From a bacterium (GTDB lineage: Bacteria > Vulcanimicrobiota > Vulcanimicrobiia > Vulcanimicrobiales > Vulcanimicrobiaceae): DNA of 36,817 nucleotides. Positions 14,524-31,146 of the stretch are shown in pieces. Position numbers and translations under genes: made by a program. The notes under the pieces are model-generated. The model was not told the DNA's origin and did no database searches. It was given only the letters and a program-made list of their open reading frames with translations. Numbering within the stretch: position 1 is the first letter of the stretch; each line of letters begins with the position of its first letter. Where the stretch lies: NCBI GenBank assembly GCA_021786705.1, contig JAJYMV010000147.1, positions 1 through 36,817 of the forward strand, written 5' to 3'.

Positions 14524-15222
14524 ATGAACGGCCCACGAATCCATCTCGAACTCCTCTCCGGCTACGCTCGGCGCGGCGAGGAACGGCTTCCCCTCGCCCG
14601 CGGCGAACGCGAGCTGCTACTCGCGCTCGCACTCCATCGGCGGGGGATCGGTGCCGAGCGCTTGACGGAACTGCTTTGGCCGCAGAGCGCCACGGCGACC
14701 GCACGAAACCGGCTCTACGTCGCGCTCCATCGTCTCCGCCGACGCTTCGGCGACGAGCTGTTCGCGCGCAACGGGGGCTCCTATCGCCTCGACGACGGCG
14801 AGGTTCGCGTCGACCTCTGGTGCTTCGCCGAGCGCTGGGATCTCCCGGAGCATCACGCCTGCGAGGAGCTCGTAACGCGGCTCGAGAGCGCGACGAATGC
14901 CGCCGCGCTCTACGAAATCCCTGAGTGGCTCGCGCCGACCTATCGACGCCTCGAAGAGTTCGCGCAAGCCGTCAGAACGACGCTCGCCGAACGAGCGCTC
15001 GGAGCCGGGGAGATCGAACGTTCGGTGCTCCTCGCTCGCCGCGCCCTCGCATACGATGATTGCGACGAACGCGCGTGGAGCGTCCTCATTCGTTCGCACC
15101 TCGTCGCCCGGGATCGCCTCGGCGCGCTACGCGACTATCGCACGTACTCCCGAGCCCTCATGCGCGAATTGCAGGCGACGCCCGCCTATGAAATCGCGCA
15201 TCTCCTCGATCGCGCGCGTTAG
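14524..15222 (+). CDS. SARP/BTAD-type transcriptional regulator
   Basis: wHTH ERELLLALALHRRGIGAERLTELLWPQSATATARNRLYVALHRLRRRFGDELF; BTAD DERAWSVLIRSHLVARDRLGALRDYRTYSRALMRELQ. Confidence 0.85.
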   Translation: MNGPRIHLELLSGYARRGEERLPLARGERELLLALALHRRGIGAERLTELLWPQSATATARNRLYVALHRLRRRFGDELFARNGGSYRLDDGEVRVDLWCFAERWDLPEHHACEELVTRLESATNAAALYEIPEWLAPTYRRLEEFAQAVRTTLAERALGAGEIERSVLLARRALAYDDCDERAWSVLIRSHLVARDRLGALRDYRTYSRALMRELQATPAYEIAHLLDRAR

Positions 15223-15231
15223 GCGCGCGAT
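15209..15231. repeat. 9-bp inverted repeat spanning the convergent BTAD/lon stop codons
   Basis: ATCGCGCGC-GTTAG-GCGCGCGAT; the 5-nt loop contains TAG (+, 15220-15222) and TTA = TAA (-, 15219-15221). Confidence 0.85.
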
Positions 15232-17693
15232 GCCGGGCGCGGCGAAATCTTCGCGCGTCCGCGCGTCGCTCCCGAGCGCTTCCCGGCGCCGCGTTTGGGC
15301 ATCGGTACGACGATGCCGTTTCGCTTGAGGTTCTCGTTGCCGAGCGGTACCGGAGCGATGATGCGTTTACCGAGCGCGTGAGCGAGCACCTCGGAGAGCT
15401 CCTCGACCGATACGAACGTCATCTGCGTCCGCACTTCGTCGGGAATATCGTCGAGATCGACCTCGTTGCGCTTGGGCAACAGCACCTTCGAGATCCCCGA
15501 GCGCCTCGCACCGAGCACCTTCTCTTTTAAGCCGCCGATCGGCAGCACCTGACCGGTCAACGTAATTTCACCGGTCATCGCCAGATTCGGGTCGACTTTG
15601 TTCCCGGTGAGCATCGACGCGATCGACGTTACCAACGCGATACCCGCGGAGGGGCCATCCTTCGGCGTCGCGCCGGCGGGAACGTGAATGTGGATGTCGT
15701 GCTTGGCGAAGAAGTCCTCGGCGAGCCCGAGTTCGTTCGAACGCGACCGTAGGAACGAAACCGCGGCTTGCGCGCTCTCCTTCATGACATCGCCGAGTTG
15801 CCCCGTCAACACCACTTTCCCGCTGCCGGGCATCACTTGCGTCTCGATGAAGAGAATATCCCCACCGACCGGCGTCCAGGCCATTCCCGTCGCGACCCCG
15901 ACCGAAGCGACGCGTTTCTTCACTTCGTTGAAGAAGCGCGGCTTCTTCAAATACTCGACGAGGCTCTCCGGCTTGACACGCGCTTTATATTTTGCGTTCT
16001 CCGCAACCTTGCGCGCGATTTTACGGAAGACCGTCCCAATCTCGCGGTCGAGATTACGGACGCCCGCCTCGCGCGTATAATCGTTGATAATCGCGCGCAA
16101 CGCCGTATCGCTAATTTGCGATTGCGCGTCCTTGACGCCGTTTGCAAGGCGCTGTTTTTTCAACAAATAGCGCTTGGCAATCTGCAATTTTTCGAACTCG
16201 GTGTAGCCCGAGAGTTGGATGATCTCCATGCGGTCGCGCAGCGGCGGAGAGATAGTGTCCAGTGAGTTCGCGGTGCACACAAAGAGCACTTGGCTCAAGT
16301 CGAACGGAAGATCGAGATAGTGGTCCCGATAGCTCTTGTTCTGCTCGGGATCGAGCACCTCCAAGAGCGCCGATTGCGGATCGCCGCGAAAATCGGAGCC
16401 GACTTTATCGATTTCGTCGATCATCATCACCGGATTGCGCGTACCGGCATCGCGAATCGCGCGCACGATCGTGCCCGGCATCGCGCCGATATAGGTGCGG
16501 CGATGGCCGCGAATCTCTGCTTCGTCGCGGACGCCGCCGACCGAGAGCCGCACGAACTTCCGCCCCATCGCACGGGCGATCGATTGCCCGAGCGAGGTCT
16601 TTCCAACGCCGGGAGGGCCGACGAAGCACAGGATCGGGCCGCTCAAACGATTCTTGAGTTTTCCGACTGCAAGATATTCGATGATACGATCCTTGATTTT
16701 CTCGAGATCGTAATGGTCTTCGTCGAGGATCTCTCGCGCTTTGCGAATATCGATGGCATCGGTGGTCGCCACGTTCCACGGCAACTGCACGAGCCAGTCG
16801 AGATAGGTGCGGATGACGCTGTATTCGGGGCTCGCCTGCGGCACCTTCGAGAGGCGGTCGAGCTCGCGCTCGGCGGCCTTTTGCGCCTCCTCGGGCATCT
16901 TCGCTTCGTCGATTTTCTTTTTGAGTTCGTTCACCTCGGCGAGCTGCGGATCGATCTCTCCGAGCTCCTCTTGAATGGCGCGCAGCTGCTGGCGCAGGTA
17001 GAACTCGCGCTGATTTTTGTCCATCTCGCGCTGAATATCGCCCTGAATCTTATGCCCGAGCTCGACGACTTCGAGCTCTTTGGTGAGCAACATCGTGAGC
17101 TTGCGCATCCGCTTGGCGGTATCGCGTTCTTCGAGCAGCGCCTGGCGCTCGGCGGTCTCCAAGCGCATCGTCGACGCGACGAAATAGGTCAGCACGTTGG
17201 AGTCGGTAATATTTTGAACTTCCATCTCCATCTCGCGCGGTGCCTGCGGCAGGTACGAGAGGAGTTTTTGGAAGAGCCCGGCGAGATTGCGATGCATCGC
17301 GACGCGCGCTTCGTTTTCGACGGTCTTATCGGGTAATTCCGTATATGCGGCGACCAAATAGGGATCGCTCTGCGTGAATTGCTCGATGCGGAAGACCGAT
17401 TGGCCGGCAACGATGCAACGGAGCGTTCCGTCGGGAACCTTGAGCATCTTCTGAATGACGCCGATGGTTCCAATGCGTTCGACGTCGTCGGGGCCCGGGT
17501 TCTCCGTCTCGCGATCCTTGAGCACGGTCAAGCCGATCGGGCGACCCTCGCGAATCGCTTCTTCGACGAGGCGAATGCCCGGCTTCTTCACCACCGCGAG
17601 CGGGATGACGGTGTTCGGGAAGAGCACGGCTTCCTGCAGCGGCAGAATGCCGAGCAACCCGGCGGGAACGATGGGTTTCGCTTTCGCGGCCAT
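15219..17693 (-). CDS. lon: ATP-dependent protease Lon (LonA)
   Basis: LonA N-domain; [20 protein letters not shown] Walker [22 protein letters not shown] catalytic Ser; [12 protein letters not shown] catalytic Lys. Confidence 0.98.
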
Positions 17694-17695
17694 AA

Positions 17696-18085
17696 TTAGA
17701 TGACGATCCTTTGCACGATGATCCGCACGTCGTTACGTGTGGTCGGAATATACGCAGTCGCTGCAATGGGCAGCACGATGGAGAGCAAGCCGTCCAGGTA
17801 CGTCGCCGAGGTGCGCTCGAGATCGACCGGAACGGGGAGGGTGAATTCGCGGCCGAATTCGCCGAAAGCGATCTCTTTGAGCACGAACGAACCGCGGCGC
17901 TGCGGCAGGGTATCGAAACGCCGCCCGGCGACGAGCAAACGGTCGGCCTCGACGGCCAAGCGGATCGATTCCGGAGCGACGCCCGCGACCTCGAGCGTAA
18001 CGACGAGCGCCTCCCGCTCTTCGTCGAGGAAGGCGTCGGCATTCGGTTCGAAACGCCCGCGGCGCCCTCGAATTACAAACTCCAT
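17696..18085 (-). CDS. Hsp20/alpha-crystallin small heat shock protein
   Basis: DEEREALVVTLEVAGVAPESIRLAVEADRLLVAGRR...GEFGREFTLPVPVDLERTSATYLDGLLSIVLP; 2 nt upstream of lon, probably same operon. Confidence 0.87.
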   Translation of the reverse strand: MEFVIRGRRGRFEPNADAFLDEEREALVVTLEVAGVAPESIRLAVEADRLLVAGRRFDTLPQRRGSFVLKEIAFGEFGREFTLPVPVDLERTSATYLDGLLSIVLPIAATAYIPTTRNDVRIIVQRIVI

Positions 18086-18105
18086 CGCATCCTTAACCCA
18101 TACCG

Positions 18106-18132
18106 TTAGCAGTCGGATGCGTCAAGTGCTAA
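18106..18132. promoter_or_regulatory. CIRCE-like HrcA operator upstream of hsp20-lon
   Basis: TTAGCAGTC-N9-AAGTGCTAA, one mismatch per arm to CIRCE TTAGCACTC-N9-GAGTGCTAA; exact 9-9-9 spacing; 20 nt upstream of hsp20 start. Confidence 0.85.
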
Positions 18133-18136
18133 GCCG

Positions 18137-18682
18137 TCAGAAGCGCGGATCGGGGAGCTGGCGCCCCGAGGGCCACGCCACGCAGGGGTCGATCCGGACG
18201 CGGAGCGCCGAGAGCGCGCTCGCCTGGATCTGGACGGGGAAGAACTGCCGATAGTGCGTGGCGACCCCATAGCGCATCTGCGGGGGGAAAGCGGTCTCGG
18301 TATCGGCAGGGAGCCGCGAGCCGGCGAGCACGAGGTTGATCGCACGGGAATCGGCGGCGGACATATAGTCGGGCGTACGCTGACCGAGCCAGGTCGTGCC
18401 GTCCTGGAGCGTATAGAGAAAACCGATGACCTCACCGGGCATCATCGAATCGGTCGAGACGACCTTGTCGATGCGGACGATCTGGTTCCCGACCGTTACC
18501 GGGGCCTGCAGGACGAGCGGGACCGCCCGAGGCGAATCGAGGCAAGGGCCGTTATTCAACGTATCGCTGGGCAACGGTGCGAGCGGCGGTGCGGCGAGCA
18601 CCGGCGGCTGCGTCGGAATCGCGACCGGCGCCTGTTGCGGCGCGAACGCGAGAAGGAGAGCGAGCGCGTGAATCGGTTGCAT
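18137..18682 (-). CDS. Secreted hypothetical protein
   Basis: Start at MQPIHALALLLAFAPQQ (short signal-like N-terminus); no family recognised. Confidence 0.6.
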   Translation of the reverse strand: MQPIHALALLLAFAPQQAPVAIPTQPPVLAAPPLAPLPSDTLNNGPCLDSPRAVPLVLQAPVTVGNQIVRIDKVVSTDSMMPGEVIGFLYTLQDGTTWLGQRTPDYMSAADSRAINLVLAGSRLPADTETAFPPQMRYGVATHYRQFFPVQIQASALSALRVRIDPCVAWPSGRQLPDPRF

Positions 18683-18741
18683 GGAGGCCTCATTCGCCGC
18701 ATGCAGGCGAAACCTAGGTGGGACGCGCAGGTTGTCGGCGC

Positions 18742-19533
18742 ATGAACGACGCTTCAACCATCGCCGCCTACGGGCAGCGCGGCCGATCGCCGATCCTCTT
18801 CCTCCACGGCTTGCGCCTGGGAAAGGCGATTTGGGAGCGACACGCACGGGCGCTCGCCGACCGCTATTACGTCGTCGCGATCGATTTGCCCGGACACGGC
18901 GGGCGCGTTGACGAGCCGTTCGATACCGATCGCGTGAGCGCCGCGCTCGATGCGGCGGTCGAAGCCTGCGCGATGCCGCCGCTCGTCGTCGGATATTCAC
19001 TCGGCGGCTTCGTTGCGGTTTCGTATTTTTCACAGCATCTCGCCGCGAGCCGAGCGTTGCTGCTCGCCGGTGCGACCTACGATTTCGACGGATGGAAGCG
19101 CCTGCCGTTTCGCATCATGGCGCAAGCGATGGGAGCGCTCCCGCACCCGATCTATCATTCGCTCGCATCGTTCTCTCTGCACGCCGTCGTCGGCGACGAG
19201 TGGGCGCGGGAGATCGAACGCATTCCGTTCGATCCGCGCGTCCTCGATTCGACGAGTGCAATGGCGGCGCACGGGTTGCGACAGAGCGAACTCATCGCGC
19301 GCTACCATCGCCCGATCCTCATCGTAAACGGCGAGTACGATCTGATCTTTCGTTCCGACGAAGCGCGCTTTCTCCGCAGCGCACCGAACGCACGCCGTGA
19401 GATCCTGCTCGGTTCGGACCACGTCGCGCCGATACGCGAGAGCGCGCGTTTCACCGCGATCGTCCGCGCCTTTGCCGACGAAGTTTTCCTCGCCGAGCAA
19501 CCTCCCGACGCCGCTGCGGGTTCCGGTGGGTGA
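18742..19533 (+). CDS. Alpha/beta-fold hydrolase
   Basis: LFLHGLRLGKAIWERHARAL, AIDLPGHGG, VVGYSLGGFVAV nucleophile elbow, late GSDHVAP catalytic His. Confidence 0.9.
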   Translation: MNDASTIAAYGQRGRSPILFLHGLRLGKAIWERHARALADRYYVVAIDLPGHGGRVDEPFDTDRVSAALDAAVEACAMPPLVVGYSLGGFVAVSYFSQHLAASRALLLAGATYDFDGWKRLPFRIMAQAMGALPHPIYHSLASFSLHAVVGDEWAREIERIPFDPRVLDSTSAMAAHGLRQSELIARYHRPILIVNGEYDLIFRSDEARFLRSAPNARREILLGSDHVAPIRESARFTAIVRAFADEVFLAEQPPDAAAGSGG

Positions 19534-29095: not shown

Positions 29096-30778
<1,683 letters not shown>

Positions 30779-31084
30779 TTACGCGTGCGCCGGCACTTTG
30801 TCGACGATAGCCAGGACGTCTTTTTCGGAAACGATGAGGTACTCGACGCCGTCGATTTTGACTTCGCTGCCCGAGTATTTCGAGAAAATTACGCGGTCGC
30901 CGACCTTCACGGTCATTGCAACAGTCGTGCCGTTGTCGAGCACGCGGCCGCTCCCGATCGCGCGGACGATCCCCTCTTGGGGCTTCTCTTTCGCGGTGTC
31001 GGGAAGAAAAATGCCGCCGACGCTCTTCTCTTCTTGCTCGACGTGCTCGATGACCACGCGGTCGGCCAATGGCTTCAGGTTCAC
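30779..31084 (-). CDS. groS: Co-chaperonin GroES
   Basis: [47 protein letters not shown] start with GGAGG SD 7 nt upstream; tracked start at 31183 would place the promoter and CIRCE inside the ORF. Confidence 0.97.
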
Positions 31085-31119: not shown

Positions 31120-31146
31120 TTGGCACTCTTAGCATCTGAGTGCCAA
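31120..31146. promoter_or_regulatory. CIRCE element (HrcA operator) upstream of groES-groEL
   Basis: TTGGCACTC-N9-GAGTGCCAA: perfect 9-bp arms, one symmetric change from consensus CIRCE. Confidence 0.95.

Follow-up and report, generated by a model that had tools for sequence, protein, structure and literature searches.

A predicted HrcA operator (CIRCE) ahead of hsp20-lon in one order of Eremiobacterota

The hsp20-lon locus and its palindrome

The DNA analysed here (36,817 nt, hereafter the window) makes up contig C37 in an assembly of 2.19 Mb and 89% completeness. Comparison with named relatives assigns it to Candidatus Eremiobacterota (WPS-2, Vulcanimicrobiota), a little-studied soil bacterial phylum. 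A cultured relative, Vulcanimicrobium alpinum, has a complete genome of 3.50 Mbp (PMC9758169). On the minus strand of the window, hsp20 (17696–18085), the first gene of the operon, encodes a small heat-shock protein of 129 aa (PF00011, E = 2.3e-13) and is followed by lon (15219–17693), which encodes a LonA-type ATP-dependent protease of 824 aa (TIGR00763, PF05362, PF02190 and PF00004). The Lon product scored 959 bits against TIGR00763 (cut-off 608), and the gene is 97% identical to lon on the MAG contig JABEUX010000096. A first-pass annotation of this DNA had placed lon 2 nt after hsp20, as these coordinates confirm, and a CIRCE-like operator 20 nt ahead of hsp20. The latter position also proved exact: a palindrome on the minus strand (18106–18132) is separated by 20 nt (18086–18105) from the ATG of hsp20 at 18085. 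On the plus strand it reads TTAGCAGTCGGATGCGTCAAGTGCTAA, which is parsed as TTAGCAGTC GGATGCGTC AAGTGCTAA, and in the sense of hsp20 it reads TTAGCACTTGACGCATCCGACTGCTAA. Compared with the consensus TTAGCACTC-N9-GAGTGCTAA, the window's TTAGCAGTC-N9-AAGTGCTAA agrees at 16 of 18 arm bases, with one mismatch in each arm and a spacer of exactly 9 nt. Dinucleotide shuffling of the window gave a CIRCE match in none of 100 shuffles, with 0 expected.

A co-directional gene of 181 aa (18137–18682, minus strand; no NCBIfam match) lies upstream of the operator. The gap between it and hsp20 is 51 nt, most of which is filled by the operator, so that 4 nt remain upstream of CIRCE. The C-terminal C-V-W-P...LPDP motif of its product is also seen ahead of hsp20 in numerous related genera. 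Scanning 17900–18800 for sigma-70 promoters revealed no promoter-like site; the one terminator-like site in the same region (18423–18438) was dismissed, as it falls within the upstream gene and scored no better than shuffled sequence. Since the stop codon of the 181-aa gene is only 4 nt before CIRCE, the hsp20 promoter must overlap either CIRCE or the 3′ end of that gene, unless transcription continues from there into the operon. At four loci of relatives (L032, L033, L054 and L056), the 3′ end of CIRCE abuts or overlaps the candidate hsp20 ATG (GAGTGCTAATG). This leaves no room for the usual leader and hints at leaderless hsp20 transcripts at these loci.

hrcA and the CIRCE sites of the genome and its relatives

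The repressor gene, whose absence from the genome the first-pass annotation had named as grounds against HrcA control, is present: another contig of the assembly (G000:C40, L001) carries hrcA in full length with dnaJ behind it, and the gene scores 299.4 bits against TIGR00331 (cut-off 197.2). It was likewise found in 53 of 60 relatives. The annotation had also proposed a genome-wide scan for further CIRCE sites. Allowing up to three mismatches, the whole assembly, 89% complete as it is, contains only five, as against one match for the backward-read pattern. Besides the site at hsp20-lon, these precede hrcA-dnaJ, groESL, a second hsp20 and a gene for an FmdB-type zinc-ribbon protein, and all five stand 10–35 nt before a stress gene. 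The groESL site lies in the window itself (31120–31146, minus strand, two mismatches), 35 nt before the GTG start codon of groES (30779–31084, minus strand; PF00166), which is followed by groEL (29096–30760, minus strand; PF00118). The distance is 10 nt for hrcA, 19 nt for the second hsp20 (L005:1501-1930, G000:C146) and 18 nt for the FmdB-type gene (L006:1228-1527, G000:C148; 84 aa; PF09723, TIGR02605), which is also preceded by CIRCE in G007, G017, G019, G032, G035 and G038. Its product in the window's genome has a Ser-rich tail. The second hsp20 adjoins a CysD-like sulfate-assimilation gene, and its CIRCE is kept in other genera. The dnaK gene of this genome is found within htrA-dnaK-grpE on contig C46, dnaJ instead being placed behind hrcA, and no CIRCE was detected at htrA-dnaK-grpE with up to four mismatches across the surrounding 6.5 kb. 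A search of locus L190 for the GAGTGCTAA half-site gave no match within one mismatch.

Six genomes of the window's own family (f1) carry 29 CIRCE sites, 25 of which precede stress genes, namely hrcA, groES, hsp20-lon, the second hsp20, the zinc-ribbon gene and, in G017, clpB. Four three-mismatch sites in relatives (L163, L165, L166 and L167) stand at no recognised stress gene and look like chance matches. G035 and G027 have lost the hsp20-lon site and kept other CIRCE sites, and G017 carries it. Among the genomes examined, G017 is also the only one in which a CIRCE was seen at clpB, 1 nt before the start codon (L146:1501-2527). Family f3, which belongs to the same class, presents a different set: at the sites examined, CIRCE stands before hrcA, groES and htrA-dnaK-grpE-dnaJ, and in one genome also before the second-hsp20 gene. 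At the f3 loci L207, L208, L170, L173 and L187, the gene preceded by CIRCE encodes an HtrA/DegP-like protease and is the first of htrA-dnaK-grpE-dnaJ, a gene order seen in L207 and L208. In more distant members of the phylum, the CIRCE sites examined precede groES. The site sets of the two families suggest that, within the window's order, the regulon took in hsp20-lon and gave up dnaK; the exit of dnaK is the less certain part, being read from a few genomes scanned with three mismatches allowed.

Conservation of the hsp20-lon CIRCE

All 60 relatives searched gave a match to lon, although some of these matches are fragments or merely distant Lon-like proteins. Within the class, hsp20 stands immediately upstream of lon wherever the upstream region is readable. 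The CIRCE between hsp20 and its upstream neighbour is present in 31 of the 37 assessable genomes of the order: 27 of 33 in the window's own family, including G015, whose site came from the end of another contig (L188), and four of four in a second family of the same order (f2). In f3, by contrast, none of the 11 genomes assessed has it. Across 23 aligned sites, information per base amounted to 1.28 and 1.80 bits in the arms, compared with 0.59 in the spacer and 0.21–0.29 in the flanks. Within the window's genus, the arms are identical in all nine genomes with a readable site, whereas the spacer and the neighbouring bases drift.

Outside the phylum, we sampled 51 lon loci (Actinomycetota, Chloroflexota, Binatota, Zixibacteria and others), two of which (L113 and L140) have no upstream sequence. 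No CIRCE was found upstream of lon within five mismatches in the 49 readable loci, many of which, Actinomycetota, Chloroflexota and Zixibacteria loci among them, have hsp20 beside lon. Among loci L089–L139, Thermoleophilia, Chloroflexota and some other phyla commonly have hsp20 directly ahead of lon, with neither CIRCE nor HAIR nearby. This suggests a functional pair of long standing that is controlled in other ways there.

In a Lon tree with long outgroup branches and a root set for drawing only, the window's order is recovered as a well-supported clade, and 8 changes of the CIRCE label are required, versus 18.4 in shuffles. This is consistent with about seven losses after one gain of CIRCE at the base of the order, a single gain that we infer from the tree. 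Because the site is bound to the order, and absent from f3 and from outside loci where hsp20 also neighbours lon, HrcA control of the old pair was probably acquired a single time in this order and lost several times afterwards. No fewer than six genera of the window's family have lost the site, which is thus not essential for the operon.

Proposed HrcA control and comparison with known systems

What these genomes show directly is the site and its conservation, the order of the genes, the presence of hrcA and the set of sites across the regulon. Judged on this sequence evidence, the palindrome at 18106–18132 is very probably a functional HrcA operator of the two-gene operon hsp20-lon, operating according to the HrcA–GroE model, and hsp20 and lon are most likely under the same repressor as the chaperonin genes.

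The same palindrome could be read as an inherited CIRCE that has decayed and no longer functions, with hsp20-lon expressed constitutively or read through from the upstream gene. Such a reading is in keeping with the mismatch in each arm, the repeated loss of the site within the family, and an intergenic space of only 51 nt in which the promoter scan recognised nothing. A decaying site, however, would hardly retain identical arms throughout the readable genomes of the genus while its spacer and neighbours drift, and the groES sites of the same genomes also have two mismatches; we therefore consider decay improbable. Could the palindrome instead serve another regulator, or act as an mRNA hairpin on the stability or translation of the hsp20-lon transcript? 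A position at the likely transcript's 5′ end, and contact with or overlap of a candidate start codon in some relatives, would suit such a role, but in sequence, beyond mere pairing, the arms fit the HrcA consensus as well as this genome's own sites at groES and hrcA, and the HAIR motif of HspR is not found upstream of lon in the readable loci, which makes this very unlikely. Control by HspR/HAIR was set aside: in the readable loci of named relatives, CTTGAGT-N7-ACTCAAG has no match within two mismatches in the region ahead of lon, searched over at most 1.3 kb. That a palindrome arose by chance, with no connection to heat shock, deserves next to no credence: the one backward-read match in the genome indicates that single three-mismatch matches can arise randomly, but the window shuffles yielded none, every one of the genomic sites is at a stress gene, and retention of the site in most of the order already refutes this reading.

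A functional CIRCE, the favoured reading, would place the operon in a well-described circuit. HrcA is a CIRCE-binding repressor kept active by GroE, and the regulon is set free once unfolded protein occupies GroE (Mogk et al. 1997, as cited in PMC7737663). In C. jejuni, HrcA binding is stimulated by GroE (PMC8533110). If hsp20-lon behaves like the HrcA systems described elsewhere, HrcA would bind and repress it, with feedback through GroE and induction by heat. Under normal conditions, GroE-activated HrcA would sit on the palindrome, overlapping the promoter or the 5′ leader, and hold down transcription of hsp20-lon. Once GroE is occupied by unfolded protein, or HrcA itself unfolds with heat, the repressor would be released, and Hsp20 (a holdase) and Lon (a protease) would rise together with groESL, hrcA-dnaJ, the second Hsp20 and the Ruc-like zinc-ribbon protein. 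Chaperonin load would in this way set the levels of holdase and Lon protease alike. The CIRCE genes of M. gallisepticum showed heat induction no greater than that of many CIRCE-less genes (PMC4245973), so a CIRCE is no guarantee of strong heat control. Whether one Eremiobacterota order rewired its GroE-sensing HrcA regulon, with the dnaK operon out and hsp20-lon in, so that chaperonin load controls holdase and Lon proteolysis instead of DnaK, is in our judgement evenly balanced. The hsp20-lon CIRCE of the order, set against the htrA-dnaK-grpE-dnaJ CIRCE of another family of the class, offers a tractable case of members being gained and lost by a stress regulon.

The literature searched, mainly open-licence papers, contained no HrcA study in Eremiobacterota/WPS-2 and no description of hsp20-lon combined under CIRCE, and in a phylum whose regulation has hardly been studied, the sites described here would constitute a first HrcA regulon derived from genomes. 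The first-pass proposal that HrcA links Lon and Hsp20 is supported by the presence of hrcA, the stress-gene sites and the order-wide conservation of the arms, but the novelty it implied was overstated, given precedents for lon in Mycoplasma and for a small heat-shock gene in Lactobacillus plantarum. In Mycoplasma pneumoniae and M. gallisepticum, CIRCE lies directly upstream of lon, which is under HrcA control (PMC7737663, PMC4245973). As in the window, lon is there preceded by CIRCE and grouped with chaperone genes under HrcA; unlike in the window, no hsp20 is reported in the transcript, lon of M. pneumoniae follows the trigger-factor promoter, and the regulon includes dnaK and clpB, whereas dnaK of the window's genome has no CIRCE. 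The small heat-shock gene hsp1 of L. plantarum has CtsR and predicted HrcA sites and is derepressed in an hrcA mutant (PMC3842655). It resembles the window's hsp20 in its predicted HrcA site and differs from it in being under dual control with CtsR and in having no linkage to lon.

A comparable arrangement exists with HspR/HAIR in actinobacteria, where a repressor likewise ties a small heat-shock protein, or Lon, to a chaperone feedback loop, although the repressor and the operator are different and the chaperone partner is DnaK rather than GroE. Bucca et al. are said to have placed lon in the HspR regulon of Streptomyces in 2003. In mycobacteria, acr2 (Hsp20) and clpB belong to the HspR/HAIR regulon (PMC8223512). 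For deltaproteobacteria, CIRCE is listed for groESL, hrcA-grpE-dnaKJ and rpoH, and clpP-clpX-lon is assigned to sigma-32 (PMC545781). The FmdB-type gene also has a possible counterpart, ruc/Rv0991c of Mycobacterium tuberculosis, which encodes an HrcA-repressed small zinc-ribbon protein with a disordered tail that acts as a redox chaperone (PMC7448276). Both genes are HrcA- or CIRCE-associated, a candidate likeness that bears on the regulon and not on the hsp20-lon operon itself. As HrcA control of lon, small heat-shock and ruc genes is already published, hsp20-lon is best described as a new, lineage-specific addition to a known regulon, and its CIRCE extends a known control system rather than introducing a new kind of control.
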